Of a stretch of 64,000 bases of DNA, positions 38,383 to 63,705 are shown one piece after another; the stretch's first letter is position 1, and every line of letters starts with the position of its first letter. A model generated the notes under the pieces. That model ran no database searches, was not told where the DNA came from, and saw only the letters and a list, made by a program, of their open reading frames with translations. The DNA comes from Vulcanisaeta sp. JCM 16159 (lineage in GTDB: Archaea > Thermoproteota > Thermoprotei > Thermoproteales > Thermocladiaceae), in NCBI RefSeq assembly GCF_001316265.1, contig NZ_BBDN01000008.1, forward strand, positions 1-64,000. The letters run 5' to 3'. A program made the position numbers and the translations under genes.

Positions 38383-38613
38383 TTATGATGTGGGTGCAGG
38401 TATACACCTAAGTATTCTAATTGCTGTCTTAACATCATCAGCAGTAACGGTCTTTCTTCCAGCATGTCTCGCTAATTCTATACTCTTTGTTGCTATATCA
38501 AACGCAATATATTCAAGGATATCTCTCAATGCTTGTATTGCATCTTCACCTACTCTTTCAGCACCAGCTTTATGGAAAATTCTATCTATTGGTGCCAGTG
38601 GTAATTCTGGCAT
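38383..38613 (-). CDS. Archaeal histone
   Basis: 76 residues with the histone fold: LPLAPIDRIFHKAGA, EDAIQALRDILEYIAFDIA, and AGRKTVTADDVKTAIRIL. Histones are rare among crenarchaea but known in Thermoproteales such as Caldivirga and Thermofilum, which supports the assignment of the window. There is a short C-terminal tail (RCIPAPTS) with one cysteine. Confidence 0.95.
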   Translation of the reverse strand: MPELPLAPIDRIFHKAGAERVGEDAIQALRDILEYIAFDIATKSIELARHAGRKTVTADDVKTAIRILRCIPAPTS

Positions 38614-49298: not shown

Positions 49299-49420
49299 CT
49301 TATAATGAAATGATTTGTTGATTTCATTAGTTCATTTCTTGGTTTTCTTAATTAATGATTATCGATAACAGGGAAAAGCTAAAGCTTTTATAATTGATCC
49401 TCAAGCCAATAATTGTGGGT

Positions 49421-49861
49421 ATGGCTGAGGAGAGCGAGAATGTGGTTATTTACGTAGAGAATGAGAACATAGCCAATAAGGAGATTGTTAAGTCGAGCTT
49501 AATAGACACCGTGAAGAACTACGTGAAAAAGCTACTGGATCAATGGAACCCAGACGAGTCAGACTTCATAGTACTTAAAGTGTCTCAAACGGTAAGTCTT
49601 GATTTACCATTAAGTAAGGAACTCTATAGGAGGGTTGAGAAGTACGGTGTTAAGAGGGTCGGTAATAAGGCTGAGGTTGAGATACCGACCTACGAGATAA
49701 TATACAGCAATAGGTGGATGGGTGAGGACATGGAGGCCGACAGGTTCGTCGTTATAATGCCCTACATAAATGATGACGTCATAAACCAGGTGGTGAATAA
49801 TATACTGTCATCACTGACACCTGAGGGTGAGGAAGAAGGTGAGGAATTCCTTGAGGAGTAG
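49421..49861 (+). CDS. Conserved crenarchaeal hypothetical protein (DUF2286-like)
   Basis: 146 residues from ATG 49421, chosen because a TATA box (CTTTTATAA, 49385-49393) lies about 30 nt upstream. Beta-alpha mix (NVVIYVENENIANKEI; AEVEIPTYEIIYSNRW), with a very acidic C-terminus (EGEEEGEEFLEE). I think it resembles a crenarchaea-specific DUF; the number is uncertain. It converges with polB1. Confidence 0.55.
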   Translation: MAEESENVVIYVENENIANKEIVKSSLIDTVKNYVKKLLDQWNPDESDFIVLKVSQTVSLDLPLSKELYRRVEKYGVKRVGNKAEVEIPTYEIIYSNRWMGEDMEADRFVVIMPYINDDVINQVVNNILSSLTPEGEEEGEEFLEE

Positions 49862-49873
49862 GTTGACGGCATT

Positions 49874-52497
49874 TCATGAGTAATTATCTATTATTGATGA
49901 GCCCATTATACTCTCAAACTCTATCCCAAAGGCATCAAGGACCTGCTCAAGCGATGTCCTTAGGTACTCAATGTACTTATTTGGGTCGATTTCATCAATC
50001 CTAGCCAACTGTATTGGCTTAACTCCATCCTTACCCGTGGTCTTTACGTAAATTATTATGTCACCAGGCCTTACATTATAGCTAGGCTCTTTAATTGAAG
50101 CGCTGCCTTTACATGTTGTGGTGTGTTCTTTGTGTATGATTCAAGAGACTTAGTGAGTGCGGTTCTTATCGCCAACTTGTTAAGTGGTATCTCCTTTCTC
50201 TGTAGTTTCCTGTAATAATCCCTGACTTTATCCCTAACCTCCTCAACGACCTTACCGACATCCTCAAGGCCCTGAATATCAGAGAGAAGGCTAATAACCT
50301 CATTGAATGCCTCCTTAGCGAAGTCAGGTGTGTTCCTCTTTTTACCAACTAATCCCTTTATGTCCAGTTCACCATTTTGTAGTATGCCGACATAGTTCTT
50401 TTTTTTCTTCCGCTCATGGCGACTAATTTATAGACCTTGTCCAGCTCAATCTCAATGCCGAATTCCTTATCCACCCATTCAATTAATTCCTTAAGCTTGT
50501 TCTCGTCAGGGTTCCAAATGAATAGGCTATCAGTGTCCCCATAAATGGGTACTAACCCAAGCTCAAGTGCCTTTAATACGGTTTTTGATAACACGTACCT
50601 AGCTAGGGCGGTCGTTAACTCAGCGGCAGGTGGGCAATATAGCTGAAAAACCTCGGCTCCTAACACGCCGTATGATGCGTTGATGAAGACCTTGAGGGCG
50701 CTCTGTACGACATTATAATAACTCTTCAATAATTCACTTTGTGCAGATTTCGCTAATTTCTTATATACATAGGCCCTTAGGTCCCTGAGTAAGCCAACGA
50801 TTAATGCAGTCAGTCCCTTTCTATCATTACACACCCAATGGGGTAGTTCTGGTATTGGCTTATTGCCTTGTTCCTTCTCGTTTGGGCATTTAACGGTTTC
50901 ATAGGATATGTTCCAACGCTTTATCACTGATGGGTACATACTTGCGAAGTCAAGTACGTAGACGTTCGGGAATATGCCGGGCATTGGTTCCAGGACTATG
51001 GCACCTGCGTACTTCTTACCCTTAATAATAGCCCTAGTCGCTACGTCACCCTTAGCCTTAACTATATCCTCCTTCTCAGGTATTAACCAACCCCTCCTCC
51101 TATGCTCGTAGTACAGCATGTTCCTAATCCATGCCGATATTTGACTCCTGACTAAGTCATCTGGCGGTGTCTTGGAAATCCTGGACATCAATATTATTAG
51201 CCTCAGCACTAGGTTGTTATCATACGTCGTCAGATAAAGCCCCAGAAAGGCGTCCCTAAAGTTATAATTAATTAACTCAACGTAGCTCATTTGCGACACG
51301 GGCTTATCCCTACTCAGCTTAGACATGCCTATTACCGCGTGGGCTATGGTGTCCAGTGTCCTATCCATGCCCCTATACTTACCACCAAAGGCGTATACCT
51401 CGATAGCCCTGATATTGAAGAACTTGTACAAGTCGATATGTATTCCGAGGGCTATGGATGCCTCGTTCCTCCTCAGAATTATCGGTATCTCCTCCTTCTT
51501 AAAACCAAGCTTAAGGGCCTGTGGTAGATGTAAGGTAAGTCGAAATTATCACCGTTAAATGTAATCAGTATTGGGTATTGCAAGATTATTGAGAATAATT
51601 CTTTCAACATTTCATACTCGCTATCGAAGAACTCCACCTCGACGTCATCGTACATGAGGTCCTCAAGGTCCTCGGGCTTTAACTCCATGTCCGGTCTCCT
51701 TAGGACCAGGATCTTCTTTAGTCCATCACTACCTGCAAGGCCTATGGCTATGATTTCATAATTAGCTCCCTGGGGTTCGGCACCCTATTCTCCTGTGGTG
51801 TGAATACCTCTATGTCGAGGGATAGCCTCTTAAGGTTTGGTACAGGGGCCTGGAACAGCGGTATCCACCTCCTCGCCTCCTCAAGGAATTCCCTATCGTT
51901 TGCGTACAACTTATTTATGAATCCCTCGATCTCGACAGGCACCTCAATGGGCACCTGCACTAGTTTTCCATCCTCAACCCTATAGAACATGCCAGGTATG
52001 ATCTCGTTATCATATATGTAGCACAAGTGGTACCTTATTCTTGACTCCCAGGTCTTTGGAAGTAACTCCCTTATTGAGTCAGACCTACCTCCAATGCTCA
52101 ACGGATCCTTAGCATCAATCTTAGTAAGTATAATCTTCTTATCGCTCAATGGGTCATACTTCTCGATAGCTTCAACGTGGCTGAACCCTGGATGTAATAT
52201 GACCTTCGTAAACTTAGTAATTATTTCTTCCGGCCTCACGTTAGTTAGTAGGTAGGGCCTATGCCCAGTGTTATCGTACCAGAAGTAAATTCTATCATTG
52301 ACTGGATCGTAAAGTTTAACAAGGGCTTTACCAACCTTCCCATCGTAGGTCACGGTCAGCACTATAGATGGCGGTGTGTTCTGAGGTGTCTCAGCCTTTA
52401 TTGTTATTTCCTCTTCTTCTTCCTCCTCGCGTTCCTCAAATTCCTCCTCTTCAAATTCCTCTTCCTCCTCTTCTTCCCTATACTCTTTACTCTTCAT
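49874..52497 (-). CDS. polB1: DNA polymerase B1 with an acidic N-terminal extension
   Basis: About 874 residues. It aligns by eye with Sulfolobus PolB1: exonuclease LSLDIEVFTP and LITFNGDNFDLPYIY, polymerase VLDFASMYPSVIKRWN, NASYGVLGAE and YGDTDSLFI, and the thumb KNTPQHVKAALQL. Residues about 6-32 are nearly all Glu. Four indels: near 51764 (NPREANYEIIAIGLAG), 51522 (YHRALKLGFKKEEIP), the T8 run 50399-50406 and 50097 (QLKEPSYNVRPGDII). PolB1 is the main crenarchaeal replicase. Confidence 0.95.
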
Positions 52498-57246: not shown

Positions 57247-58682
57247 CTTCCGTAGCCTAATTAACCTGTTTAATCGCCGTAACTTGACTTCATAATTAAT
57301 ACCTACATTCAAGTCAATTCTAAGGGAGTTAATTATCCTTGATTCAATGACATTCTCAACATTCATAGGCTTCTTGAGTGCCGTAATTAAATGCATTAAA
57401 AACCTTTCTCTATAGTAATCAATAAACCCATAGAAATGGTTTAGGCATATAGAGTGCAAGACCCTCAAGACCAACCCTCTCACTGGGCTTCATTAAATGC
57501 CTGTACTCACTGGCTCTGGGGCTTGCCAGAAACCACCTATTCCTTGGCATTAGTATTCTAGGTAGTTTATCCTGAAAACCACACCTTTTGCATCTTAGTA
57601 AGCCTGACCTGCCTGCGGATTCCATTGGGCCACCACAAACCGGGCATCTAGGATTCTTCACTTCAATATGTCTATCATGGAGAACCCTCATTCCTTCGAT
57701 ATATAAGCTGGAATTACCATTAGGCTTAACACCACCCCACGCCTGTACTAAACATCCAATACAATCTGCTAACTCCCTGGAAATACCCAAGTGCCTATAT
57801 GCCATTACCCTTTGTTTCTCATCCAAAATAGCCTGGGTATGCCCTCTCTCATTAAACATAATGTCCGTAATAATACCCATAAGGTCAATATTCCTATATG
57901 GGATAGGTTCATTTACGTGTGACCTATGTTCATCAGTTCCCTGGTTAGTTATGTATATTATCCATCCAACGGCATTATACTTATTAGCGAGGTAATTACC
58001 CATGGCAAGTACATGATGGGGTGAATCACCCTAATGCCAAAGAGGACTGGGTCAGGGCCGTGAGGTTCAATAAGTACTTGGTCCTCATATATATTTAGGA
58101 ATGTAAAGGGGTTCGTTACACGGTCCCAAATCTTCACGTCACTAGGTCAATAATCGGTCTCTCTTCGTCCTCAAGCCTATATGCTATGAATTCATAGGTG
58201 GCGTCGATTGGTACAAAGCCCAGAGAGGCCAGCGCTCCAATGACGCCCCTACCACCCATGAGTCTGGCATTTATCTTATTAGCTACTCTTTGCGCGAGGT
58301 CCAGCGTGACCACGTCCCTAACGCTCTTCCTATAAAACCATGCTAATCGTTCATCAACATTTATTGAATCGCTTATTACGTATGCGATTCCAGGGCTTGT
58401 CTTACCAACTCTCTTAACCATTTGGTCAATCAGTGAATTCATTAGCTCAACATAATCCGTAGCATCATTCTCAGATTTGGCATTGATTATTATTGATAGG
58501 GATGCATTTCCTCTGGTCTTAAATGGCACATATGGATTTAACCTGGTCAATCGCGGCAACCCAACAATGTTATTAATTAGTCCATCCTTAATTAGGTATT
58601 TAACGAATGAGTACATGACATACGTGGTGCATCCACCACCCTCCCAATCCGTGTCATCAATACCAATCATCAAATACGGCAT
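57226..58682 (-). CDS. tiaS: tRNA(Ile2) 2-agmatinylcytidine synthetase TiaS
   Basis: TiaS attaches agmatine to C34 of tRNA-Ile(CAU) so it reads AUA. The N-terminal kinase-like motif reads LMIGIDDTDWEGGGCTTYV, there is an OB-like middle and a C-terminal zinc ribbon CPVCGGPMES...CKRCGF. Three indels: near 58137 (IIDLVDVKIWDRVTNPF), 58024 (GIRGDSPHHVLAM) and 57437 (MPNHFYGFIDYYRER). About 485 residues. Confidence 0.92.
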
Positions 58683-58766: not shown

Positions 58767-58775
58767 TTTTAAATA
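58767..58775 (+). promoter_or_regulatory. TATA box of PCNA
   Basis: TTTTAAATA lies 26-34 nt upstream of the first in-frame ATG (58801). This supports the long PCNA start and shows that the acidic extension would be part of a near-leaderless message. Confidence 0.6.
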
Positions 58776-58800: not shown

Positions 58801-59733
58801 ATGGTTGAGAATGAGGAGTCTGAGAGGGAGGAACGTGAGGAGAGTGAGGAAGAGGGGGTTGAGGGTGTTGAGACGGAAGAAACTACGGAGGAAATAGAGG
58901 AGGTTAGTGAAGGTGAGGAGGGTGCTGAGGAGGGTGGTGCAGGCGGTGTTGTTGAGAGTGAGGAGTATTATAGGATAATGTTCCCAAAGGGTAAGGAGTT
59001 TAGGTACGTGTTCACCGCATTAGCTAACCTACTTCAGGAGTCTAACTTCATTATTGATTCTGAGGGTATTAAGATGAAGTCCATAGACCCAAGCAAGGTT
59101 TCCCTGGTAATCCTGAACATACCTGGTTCAAGTCTCGAGGAGTATACAGTGACGAAGGAGTTGAAGGTTGGGATAAGCTTTGACCTTGTTAAGAAGATTT
59201 TGAAGAGGGTTAAGGCTAAGGAGAAGGTTGAGCTGGGCGTTGATACTGCTAAGAATAGGTTCTTCATAACCATATACACAAAGAAGGGTAGGGAGGGCGG
59301 CTTCTACAGGAGGTTTGGGCTTCCAATAATTAACATAGCCGAGGAGGAAGTTCCTGAGCCTAAGCTTGAGTACCCCGTCAGAATTAGGATGGGTATGGAC
59401 GTATTTGTTGACCTATTAAGTTCAGCCAGTGAGGTTTCCGATTCCGTGAAGCTTTTTGCAAAGGAGGATTCCTTCTCCATATTGGCTGAGGGTGAGGGTG
59501 GTAAGTCAATTGAAACAACCTACTCCAGCGGTGATGAGGTATTTTACGAATACTCAGTGCAGGGCTCTCATGATGCCGTATACTCCGTTGAACTACTCCT
59601 GGATTTCATAAGGCCGATGAAGCAGATAAGTGAGACTGTAACAATAGAGTTTGATAATAATAAGCCATTAAAACTAACGATAGATTTTGCAATAGGATCC
59701 ATTCAGTTTTACCTAGCACCTAGGATGGCGTAA
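58801..59733 (+). CDS. pcn: PCNA sliding clamp with a 55-residue acidic N-terminal extension
   Basis: 310 residues. The clamp fold starts at EEYYRIMFPKGKEFRYVF and ends FYLAPRMA; the interdomain region and TIYTKKGREGG loop are typical of a crenarchaeal PCNA. Residues 1-55 are mostly Glu, Gly, Ser and Val, with no predicted structure. No ATG, GTG or TTG exists near the usual start except ATG 58978, which would cut strand one. Crenarchaeal PCNA is often a heterotrimer of three paralogues; only one is here. Confidence 0.93.
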   Translation: MVENEESEREEREESEEEGVEGVETEETTEEIEEVSEGEEGAEEGGAGGVVESEEYYRIMFPKGKEFRYVFTALANLLQESNFIIDSEGIKMKSIDPSKVSLVILNIPGSSLEEYTVTKELKVGISFDLVKKILKRVKAKEKVELGVDTAKNRFFITIYTKKGREGGFYRRFGLPIINIAEEEVPEPKLEYPVRIRMGMDVFVDLLSSASEVSDSVKLFAKEDSFSILAEGEGGKSIETTYSSGDEVFYEYSVQGSHDAVYSVELLLDFIRPMKQISETVTIEFDNNKPLKLTIDFAIGSIQFYLAPRMA

Positions 59734-60674: not shown

Positions 60675-61874
60675 TCATTGCCTTAATACTGATAATGGTG
60701 GAACATACTTATTATGGCTTATTATCGATCCTGGATAAACCACGGAATTAGCGCCAACCCTGGCCTTGGGTCCCACAACGGCGCCCAACTTGGCTATTTG
60801 CTTACCCTTAACAATGACTGGTGATAGGTGCGATACCTCGACACCACTTGGTAATACATTTAGTGTTACAACGCCAGGTTCTATGGTGCTTTCATCACCG
60901 ATTATTGAACTACCTATGAATGAGCCCCTACCCACGGTAGCCCTATACCCAATGAGTGACTCCGTTATTTCAGCATCAGCACCTATCACCGACTCCTCCT
61001 CAAGTGATGTGTTGTTCCTAATCAATGCATTATTACCGACGTACGCATTCCTACCGATGTACACGGGCCCCCTAATTATTGCGCCGTGATCTATCCTGGC
61101 GCCTTCATCGACTATCACAGGCCCTTCTATGACAGCCCTAGACGAGACATCAGCATCCTTGCTGATCCTAGCCTCCCTTAAATCGCTCATCAAGTACTTT
61201 ATGGCGCTTAGTAAGTCCCAGGGATAACTAACGTCAACAAACCATCCGCTCCAAAGGGCTACGTTGATATTACCCCTGAACCGCCTTAAGGTGTTGTTTA
61301 TACTTCCGTTAAATTCCTGTAATGAGGCTAGGAACTCCCTTTCAGCAATTAATATCCCAGTCCATGCATAGCCTGATTTATGCTCGTTCACCTTGTTTAT
61401 CGCTACTACGTCGTTCACCTGAACCTCAAAGTAACCCTGCAAGTCTGATAATGGGGTCATTAATATGGTTACTGACTTGCCTGAGTTCACGTGGCTATTC
61501 AATGCTAGTTCATAGGCTTCCCGGGGCAGTATAACGTCACCAAATGATATTATTGTCGTGCCCTTACCAGAAATTTCATTAATCATTTTTAATGCACTAT
61601 CGATATCATCACCTCTCTGTCCAACATTTTCTATCGAAACATTATTGAAGTATCGACCAACCTCGTTACCCACCTTAGTTGGGTTCCTAGAAATAATGTA
61701 AATGGTCCTTAAACCCAGGTGAACCAGGTTACTCGTTGGATAATAAATGAGCGGTTTACCTAGTAACCTAATGAGTGGCTTATCGAGATAGGGCGTTAAT
61801 GGCTCCATGTTAGTGCCTCTACCACCACTAAGTACTACTCCGAGAACCTCCCTGTAATTCAATACGCTGTTCAT
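60675..61874 (-). CDS. Sugar-1-phosphate nucleotidylyltransferase/acyltransferase (GlmU-like)
   Basis: 399 residues. An N-terminal Rossmann domain has LSGGRGTNMEPLTPYLDKPL; the usual catalytic Arg in GxGTRM is Asn here. Catalytic Asp appears as SFGDVILP. A left-handed beta-helix with hexapeptide repeats follows (VIEGPVIVDEGARID and on). Relatives make UDP-GlcNAc or other NDP-sugars. It overlaps the glmS stop by four bases, so GlmS feeds it in one operon. The Arg-to-Asn change may lower or alter activity. Confidence 0.88.
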   Translation of the reverse strand: MNSVLNYREVLGVVLSGGRGTNMEPLTPYLDKPLIRLLGKPLIYYPTSNLVHLGLRTIYIISRNPTKVGNEVGRYFNNVSIENVGQRGDDIDSALKMINEISGKGTTIISFGDVILPREAYELALNSHVNSGKSVTILMTPLSDLQGYFEVQVNDVVAINKVNEHKSGYAWTGILIAEREFLASLQEFNGSINNTLRRFRGNINVALWSGWFVDVSYPWDLLSAIKYLMSDLREARISKDADVSSRAVIEGPVIVDEGARIDHGAIIRGPVYIGRNAYVGNNALIRNNTSLEEESVIGADAEITESLIGYRATVGRGSFIGSSIIGDESTIEPGVVTLNVLPSGVEVSHLSPVIVKGKQIAKLGAVVGPKARVGANSVVYPGSIISHNKYVPPLSVLRQ

Positions 61875-63705
61875 TCCACGGTCACCGTCTTCGCCAAATT
61901 CCTCGGTTTATCTGGGTCGTAACCACGTGCAACTGCTGTGTAGTAAGCGAGTAATTGCATCGGCACTACGTATATTATTGGCGCAATCCTATAGTCGATG
62001 TTAGGCAGCTCAAACGTCACGTTCAGTAATTCCCTAAACTTACCAACGTATTTCTCAGGGACAAAACCTATGGTGTACGCGTCCCTAGCCTTCATTTCCA
62101 TAATATTGCCGAGTAGTGCATCCACATTATCATCATCAAGTATTGAGAATACGACAGGATAACCCTCCTCAACAAGCGCTATTGGCCCATGCTTACTCTC
62201 ACCTGCTGGGTATGCCTCAGCATGTATATACGCTATCTCCTTCAGCTTTAGGGCTCCCTCCATACTTAGTGGGACGCCAATACCCCTACCCAGGTAATAC
62301 GCATTGTTTCTGCTCTTCATATACTCACTCAACGCCTTAATCCTGCCCTCGGTCCTAGTTATAACGTTTTGAAGGATTCCCGGTACCTTATTGAGGGAGT
62401 CCATGAGATTCCTATACTCACCTTGGCCCAGCTTACCCATGGCAATACCAGCCTTAAGGCAAGTATTGTAAGAATAACCAATTGTGTGGTGAAGGTCTTA
62501 GTGGCGGCAACGCCAATTTCGGGACCCGCCCTCGTGTAAAGCACGTAGTTCGACTCCCTAGGTATTGCACTATCGATGACATTCGATACGGCAACGACCT
62601 TAGCACCCCTCTCTTTAAACGCCCTCACGGCAACCAAGGTATCTATAGTCTCGCCTGACTGGCTGATAGCTATTACAGTGTCATTATCATTGATAGCATT
62701 AACGTACTTCTTATACTCAGAGGATATGATTGTATGTGTATCGAGACCGAGCATTGACGTGAGTAGGTAATCGCTAACAAGGCCTGCGTGATATGACGTG
62801 CCGGCGCCGATTATCAGTACCTTTCTCGAATTTAGAAGAAGGTTTATTACATTGTCGAATTCCCCCTCATTAATTCCTGCCAGTGTTGAACTTATGGCGA
62901 AGGGTTGTTCATGAATCTCCTTAAGCATGAAGTGCGGATAACCCTCCTTACTCGCCATCTCAGGTGTCCAACTAATGAGCCTAACCCTCTCCTCAACATT
63001 AATAGGAACGCCATCTTTTTCAATATAGACCTTGCCTGGCTCAATATACCCATACTCGCCATCCCTAAGTACTATCACGGTATTCGTGAACTCCAGAAAG
63101 GCCGGTATATCACTGGCAATGAAATTAGCGCCGTTACCAATACCGATGACTAATGGTGAGGTATTTCTGGCGAAGTAAAGCCTATTGGGTTCCTGGGCTA
63201 TTATAACGACAAATGCATAGGCACCCTTTAGTCTCGATAATGCAGCCTTAAATGCGTCGAAGGGTTTGTAACCAAGCCTTAAATACTCCTCAATTAAATG
63301 GGCAACGACCTCGGTATCCGTCTCACTCTTAAATACGTGACCCTCTCTAATCAATTCCTCCTTAAGCTCCAGGAAATTCGAGATTATGCCATTATGAACA
63401 ACAGCGACATTACCTGAGCAGTCCGTGTGCGGGTGCGCATTCTCGTCGCTCGGCTTTCCATGGGTAGCCCACCTGGTATGGCCAATGGCGCTCGTGCCGT
63501 TAACCTCGTCGAAGTTTAACCTCACACTAACCTCGGCAATCTTACCCTTACCTTTCCTAACCTCTATATAATTACCCTTAATGACCGCAATGCCGACTGA
63601 GTCATAACCCCTATACTCAAGTTTCTCAAGGCATCTTCTAACTACCTTACCAATGGGTTCCCTAAGGTTATTTGGCAACGACGTAATGCCAATAATACCA
63701 CACAT
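61871..63705 (-). CDS. glmS: Glutamine-fructose-6-phosphate aminotransferase (GlmS)
   Basis: About 611 residues. The N-terminal class II amidotransferase starts at Cys2 (MCGIIGITSLPN), with GHTRWATHG and DIPAFLEFT; two SIS domains follow (GAGTSYHAGLVSDYLL; YLGRGIGVPLSMEGALKLKE). One missing base near 62450 splits it (LRLGIAMGKLGQGEYRN). It makes glucosamine-6-phosphate from glutamine and fructose-6-phosphate, the first step to UDP-GlcNAc. Confidence 0.95.

Follow-up and report, generated by a model that had tools for sequence, protein, structure and literature searches.

An acidic N-terminal tail on one of two PCNA paralogues in Vulcanisaeta and related Thermoproteales

The PCNA-A gene and its N-terminal tail

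Towards the end of the window (the whole 64-kb stretch of DNA analysed here), the forward strand carries an ORF with an ATG start (58801–59733) that encodes a PCNA of 310 aa, designated PCNA-A. The clamp body occupies residues 56–310 and the stop codon (58966–59733, forward strand). It contains the Pfam domains PCNA_N, from residue 63 (51.8 bits, cut-off 20.3), and PCNA_C, from residue 187 (26.3 bits, cut-off 23), and has PDB PCNA matches over residues 57–309. Against Pyrococcus PCNA, residues 57–309 align with 3–247 (E 1.2e-33), the interdomain connector and C-terminus included. The alignment with solved archaeal clamps begins only at residue 57, the counterpart of Pyrococcus PCNA residue 3, therefore residues 1–55 are an extension. 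The protein thus resembles the archaeal clamps, such as Pyrococcus PCNA and Saccharolobus PCNA1-3, in being a two-domain clamp subunit that aligns over its whole length, but differs from them in the 55-residue acidic extension, which neither the solved archaeal clamps matched nor any of the non-Thermoproteales clamps examined possess.

The extension contains 27 Glu, 8 Gly and 2 Arg, with no Asp or Lys, for a net charge of approximately −25, making it a Glu-rich, low-complexity segment (27 of 55 residues Glu) on a replisome protein. Its Glu-rich acidic part (residues 1–44; 58801–58932, forward strand) is recognized by composition, and the acidity is conserved in 28 genomes. It is joined to the clamp by a Gly-rich linker, GGAGGVVESEE (residues 45–55; 58933–58965, forward strand), within which GGVVE is invariant in the Vulcanisaeta sequences aligned. 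The initial annotation had described an acidic, Gly-rich tail, dominated by Glu, ahead of a normal clamp, and the Pfam and PDB boundaries together with the composition agree with this. Its statement that the tail lacks hydrophobic residues holds approximately, there being eight V, I or M among residues 1–55. Acidic residues are almost solely Glu across the 26 genomes with complete tails, most of which nearly lack Asp; heat-driven degradation of Asp is a possible cause.

An AlphaFold model of PCNA-A, built from five sequences and of low confidence (mean pLDDT 37), was used only weakly. It places the first strand, YYRIM, at residues 56–60, and no contact between tail and clamp is predicted in this poor model. 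Based on composition and low-confidence secondary structure, the tail is probably disordered.

Start codon and selection on the tail

A TATA-like box, TTTTAAA (58767–58773, forward strand), lies 34 nt before the ATG of the tail and is shared with the Vulcanisaeta relatives, supporting the earlier proposal of an upstream TATA box that fits the long start. A TATA element is present at −31 to −36 of the tail ATG in all 11 Vulcanisaeta genomes in which the upstream region was read. Equivalents occur at −30 to −33 in seven out of eight genomes of genera g2 and g4, including CCTTAAAAA at −32/−33 in four g2 genomes and CTTTAAAA at −30/−31 in g4. The distance from TATA box to transcription start is roughly fixed in archaea. 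The spacing seen here therefore suggests a near-leaderless transcript, beginning within a few bases of the tail ATG.

Differences in tail length between species are whole codons, and there are no in-frame stops in the relatives. When all pairs of the 11 Vulcanisaeta tails are compared, single A–G changes in Glu codons comprise 392 silent third-position changes, 22 Glu-Gly and no Glu-Lys, these being counts over sequence pairs and not independent events. Near-gapless pairs give 28 silent, three Glu-Gly and again no Glu-Lys changes. The absence of Glu-Lys is striking because the chemical change involved is identical to the silent A–G change. The dN/dS ratio of the tail is 0.07–0.23 in the pairs where it is computable, and that of the clamp is 0.02–0.10 in the pairs with any clamp substitutions. 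The sequence comparisons indicate that the tail is under purifying selection, in which the negative charge is kept and the exact sequence less so.

The possibility that the start is misannotated, with the protein beginning near Met60 and the upstream part untranslated, was also considered. There is an in-frame ATG here (58978–58980, forward strand), preceded by GAGGAG, and it is the sole in-frame alternative near the canonical start. The claim in the initial annotation that no alternative start exists is therefore literally wrong, although it is right in substance. Met60 is equivalent to V6 of Pyrococcus PCNA and lies inside the first strand, so that a start there would delete the first β-strand (56–60); in addition, it is conserved only in Vulcanisaeta and genus g3. 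It is therefore unlikely to be used. The strong silent-site bias with no Glu-Lys changes, the absence of in-frame stops from the relatives' tails and the match of the TATA position to the tail ATG likewise argue against misannotation, which is extremely improbable. Promoter, reading frame, selection and the alternative ATG all agree, at the level of sequence, that the long start and the tail are real coding sequence.

Distribution of the tail and the histone question

The PCNA-A tail was found in 28 genomes from five or more genera, 26 of them with complete tails of 34–72 aa and net charges of −13 to −30. It is present in 12 out of 12 Vulcanisaeta genomes (one partial) and in 25 out of 25 genomes of the family formed by Vulcanisaeta and three sister genera (G006 partial, at a contig end). 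Outside this family it occurs in G026, from the separate basal family f3, and in two genomes of g8, a genus at the base of a third family (G040 partial). The initial annotation had called for comparison with other Thermoproteales PCNAs, and absence of the tail from all relatives is hereby excluded.

The tail is absent in genera g5 and g7 of family f2, which have ordinary short N-termini such as MSVRALFPKGKEPRY and which, from their place in the order, are taken to be Pyrobaculum/Thermoproteus-like. The second clamp gene, PCNA-B, was found in every complete genome, with no such tail in any species examined. No PCNA tail was seen in the Thermofilales-like genomes of the class, nor, among the matches listed, in the clamps with the longest frames from the rest of the phylum sample. 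The longer PCNA frames from other orders (G141, G220, G281, G246, G257, G097, G089, G087 and G090) were likewise rejected, none being acidic-tailed. A third, very divergent PCNA (approximately 22 % identical) was noted in a g3 genome (G019:C79:17044–17766; L083); the other genomes searched have two.

In the clamp phylogeny, the f3 sequence, which is tailed, branches at the base of the PCNA-A clade, with g8 as the sister of g5 and g7. The simplest history on this tree would be a single gain of the tail on the stem leading to PCNA-A and a single loss on that leading to g5 and g7, such that the tail would have arisen once in the Thermoproteales, after the duplication that gave rise to PCNA-A and PCNA-B.

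Presence of the tail on just one of two PCNA paralogues could point to a role within the clamp itself. As an autoinhibitory mimic of DNA, the tail would fold over the positive channel or the loader-binding face and control loading, A/B assembly or sliding. At 35–70 aa, it should be long enough to reach any face of the ring. However, the contact is not predicted in the poor model available, the wide variation in length and sequence argues against a specific docked site, and the clamps of the Thermoproteaceae function tail-less. A clamp-intrinsic role is therefore unlikely, although it deserves some weight.

A role in chromatin has to be weighed against the same distribution. The window encodes an archaeal histone of 76 aa (38383–38613, reverse strand), which the initial annotation had put forward as a basic protein that the tail might recruit. 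This description did not hold up: the histone is tail-less and has a net charge of 0. Together with the Thermofilales, in which there are histones and no PCNA tail, this leaves simple attraction to a basic histone unsupported. A more elaborate form of the proposal is that the tail is a built-in, replication-coupled, chaperone-like element that binds histones and moves them from the DNA and back onto it behind the fork. Within the order, all tailed lineages (28 genomes) encode a histone of family PF00808, and the 17 g5/g7 genomes, whose readable PCNA-A sequences are all tail-less, lack it, so that the loss of the tail and that of the histone fall on one and the same branch, which is well supported. 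Proteins that handle histones commonly have acidic segments; among eukaryotic replication-coupled chaperones, CAF-1 is an example that uses such segments and binds PCNA. The PCNA-A tail is like the CAF-1-type chaperones in being an acidic, clamp-associated stretch; it differs from them in belonging to the clamp itself, and the local histone is neutral and tail-less. Against this role, the agreement between tail and histone amounts to one independent co-loss and has no statistical weight, the Thermofilales combination does not fit, and the basic chromatin protein Cren7 is present with or without the tail. A chromatin role is thus about as doubtful as a clamp-intrinsic one, if not marginally more so. 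The specific version of it, in which the tail would be a clamp-integral histone-handling element, a single-protein archaeal analogue of PCNA plus CAF-1 that disappeared from the Pyrobaculum/Thermoproteus-like lineage together with the histone, is slightly less probable again. The joint loss of tail and histone also offers an easy way to test whether replication and chromatin are coupled in archaea.

Cren7 was also considered as an explanation of the tail distribution and was rejected, being found in 13 out of 14 genomes regardless of the tail. There are four to five Cren7-like genes in each of the Vulcanisaeta genomes G003, G007, G010 and G011, versus one to two in the other Thermoproteales searched.

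Acidic segments on the clamp and on PolB1

The most acidic 40-residue window was determined for each ORF of at least 100 aa in a sample of 447 ORFs, 377 of which came from 400 kb of V. distributa and the rest from the 64-kb window; this is a sample and not the whole proteome. Against a background median of 5 and 99th percentile of 12.5, the top four segments were those of PCNA-A (net −22 in V. distributa and −21 in the window) and PolB1 (−20 and −19 in the two strains). Within the sample, an acidic tail is not a general habit of the proteome, since the top four all belong to PCNA-A or PolB1. This bears on whether the tail could be a generic spacer for solubility or thermal stability, with nothing specific to the replisome. 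Its low complexity, variable length and tolerance of sequence change would suit such a spacer, yet tails of this kind are almost absent from the sample and sit on two replication proteins, while PCNA-B and hyperthermophilic relatives do without one. A generic spacer is accordingly a poor candidate, less probable than the clamp-intrinsic and chromatin roles.

The PolB1 segment is an acidic N-terminal extension, MKSKEYREEEEEEEFEEEEFEEREEEEEEE (52408–52497, reverse strand), picked up by the acidity scan and of a type reported for the Thermoproteales (PMC5418573). Its gene (50358–52497, reverse strand) starts at 52497, approximately 6.3 kb from the PCNA start; the frame is broken near 51748 in this assembly and intact (875 aa) in V. 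distributa G007. Of the PolB1 proteins read, the 23 from Thermoproteales all have the acidic tail (net −9 to −18), and the only one from Thermofilales has none (net +1). The charge is −12 to −18 in the PCNA-tailed lineages versus −9 to −11 in the PCNA-untailed ones. The acidic N-terminus of PolB1, encoded in the same window but overlooked in the initial annotation, is a more telling partner of the PCNA tail than is the histone.

Also split in the window and intact in V. distributa G007 are tiaS (57419–58682, two ORFs) and glmS (61871–63705, two ORFs), and PCNA-B on contig C4 has internal stops as well. Indel errors are evidently numerous in this assembly, which is 63 % complete.

Acidic segments next to a replicative polymerase have precedent. 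PBP1, a partner of PolB1 in Saccharolobus, carries at its C-terminus a stretch of 19 residues, 12 of which are Glu (Yan et al., 2017; PMC5418573). This tail keeps strand displacement in check and speeds up recycling, and it is believed to compete with DNA (PMC5418573). The Thermoproteales lack PBP1 and PBP2, but their PolB1 N-termini are acidic and have been suggested as possible substitutes for the PBP1 tail (PMC5418573), a point repeated later (PMC7923795). Such modules move between subunits; in eukaryotic Pol delta, the carrier is p12 or a protein that substitutes for it (PMC5418573). For the clamp, no description of an acidic N-terminal PCNA tail and no paper covering both PCNA and Vulcanisaeta were found in the literature search; the PCNA tail therefore appears to be undescribed so far, whereas acidic PolB1 tails are already known.

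The PCNA tail and the PolB1 extension are alike in being N-terminal, Glu-rich and almost Asp-free, on core replisome proteins of the same order, and in being absent from the Thermofilales. The PCNA tail differs in being on the clamp, longer and more acidic, and in its loss from the Pyrobaculum/Thermoproteus-like lineage, which retains the PolB1 extension. It is not itself a PolB1-type extension, its carrier being PCNA and PolB1 having its own extension in the same genomes. With the PBP1 tail it shares a Glu-rich composition, that of PBP1 being polymerase-tethered and a proposed competitor of DNA (PMC5418573). PBP1, however, is a separate α+β subunit with a 19-residue C-terminal tail and no reported Thermoproteales homologue. 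The PCNA tail, being N-terminal and on PCNA, is therefore not a PBP1, and is at most PBP1-like in action.

The sole comparably acidic segment in the proteome sample sits on PolB1, and for this reason the PCNA-A and PolB1 tails probably act as tethered polyanions at the fork. The interpretation given in the initial annotation is supported in part, a role as a flexible acidic polyanion being a sensible one for the PCNA tail. The fuller explanation, that it is a genuine, charge-selected tethered polyanion which tunes contacts between polymerase and DNA at the replication fork, is the best available and has roughly even odds of being correct. Under this explanation, the Thermoproteales would have two polyanions at the fork: the polymerase would bear one and, except in the g5 and g7 lineage, the clamp the other. 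With the clamp on DNA, each ring would have between one and three tails hanging next to the polymerase, FEN1 and ligase, where they may compete with DNA for the basic DNA-binding surfaces of these enzymes. Such competition would favour release, hand-off and recycling, and would limit strand displacement. The PBP1 tail acts in this way on Sulfolobus PolB1, and a like role has been proposed for the acidic PolB1 N-terminus of the Thermoproteales. Being borne by the clamp, the PCNA tail would remain at the 3′ end while polymerase release, flap cleavage and ligation take place, and may discourage non-productive DNA binding by these basic enzymes.

The main weakness of the fork model is that the Pyrobaculum/Thermoproteus-like genera keep the PolB1 tail without a PCNA tail, so that the latter is dispensable for whatever the former does. 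Likewise, the tailed species already have the PolB1 tail, and the redundancy must be explained. Acidic segments near the polymerase have been acquired repeatedly, as PBP1 in the Sulfolobales, the PolB1 N-terminus in the Thermoproteales and p12 in eukaryotic Pol delta (PMC5418573). The sliding clamp can be added as a carrier of such an acidic replisome module, which here is confined to one paralogue of the two and is under selection that preserves its charge. What tethered polyanions do at the fork becomes a question testable with purified proteins.

A hidden PBP1 was sought in the ORF convergent with polB1 (49394–49861), which has an acidic C-terminus. This candidate was rejected, as the protein belongs to DUF2286, has no significant PDB relative and matched no known PBP1 structure. 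The DUF2286 protein (window 49394–49861; L174 13523–13969) ends in a short acidic tail, EGEEEGEEFLEE, that is superficially PBP1-like.
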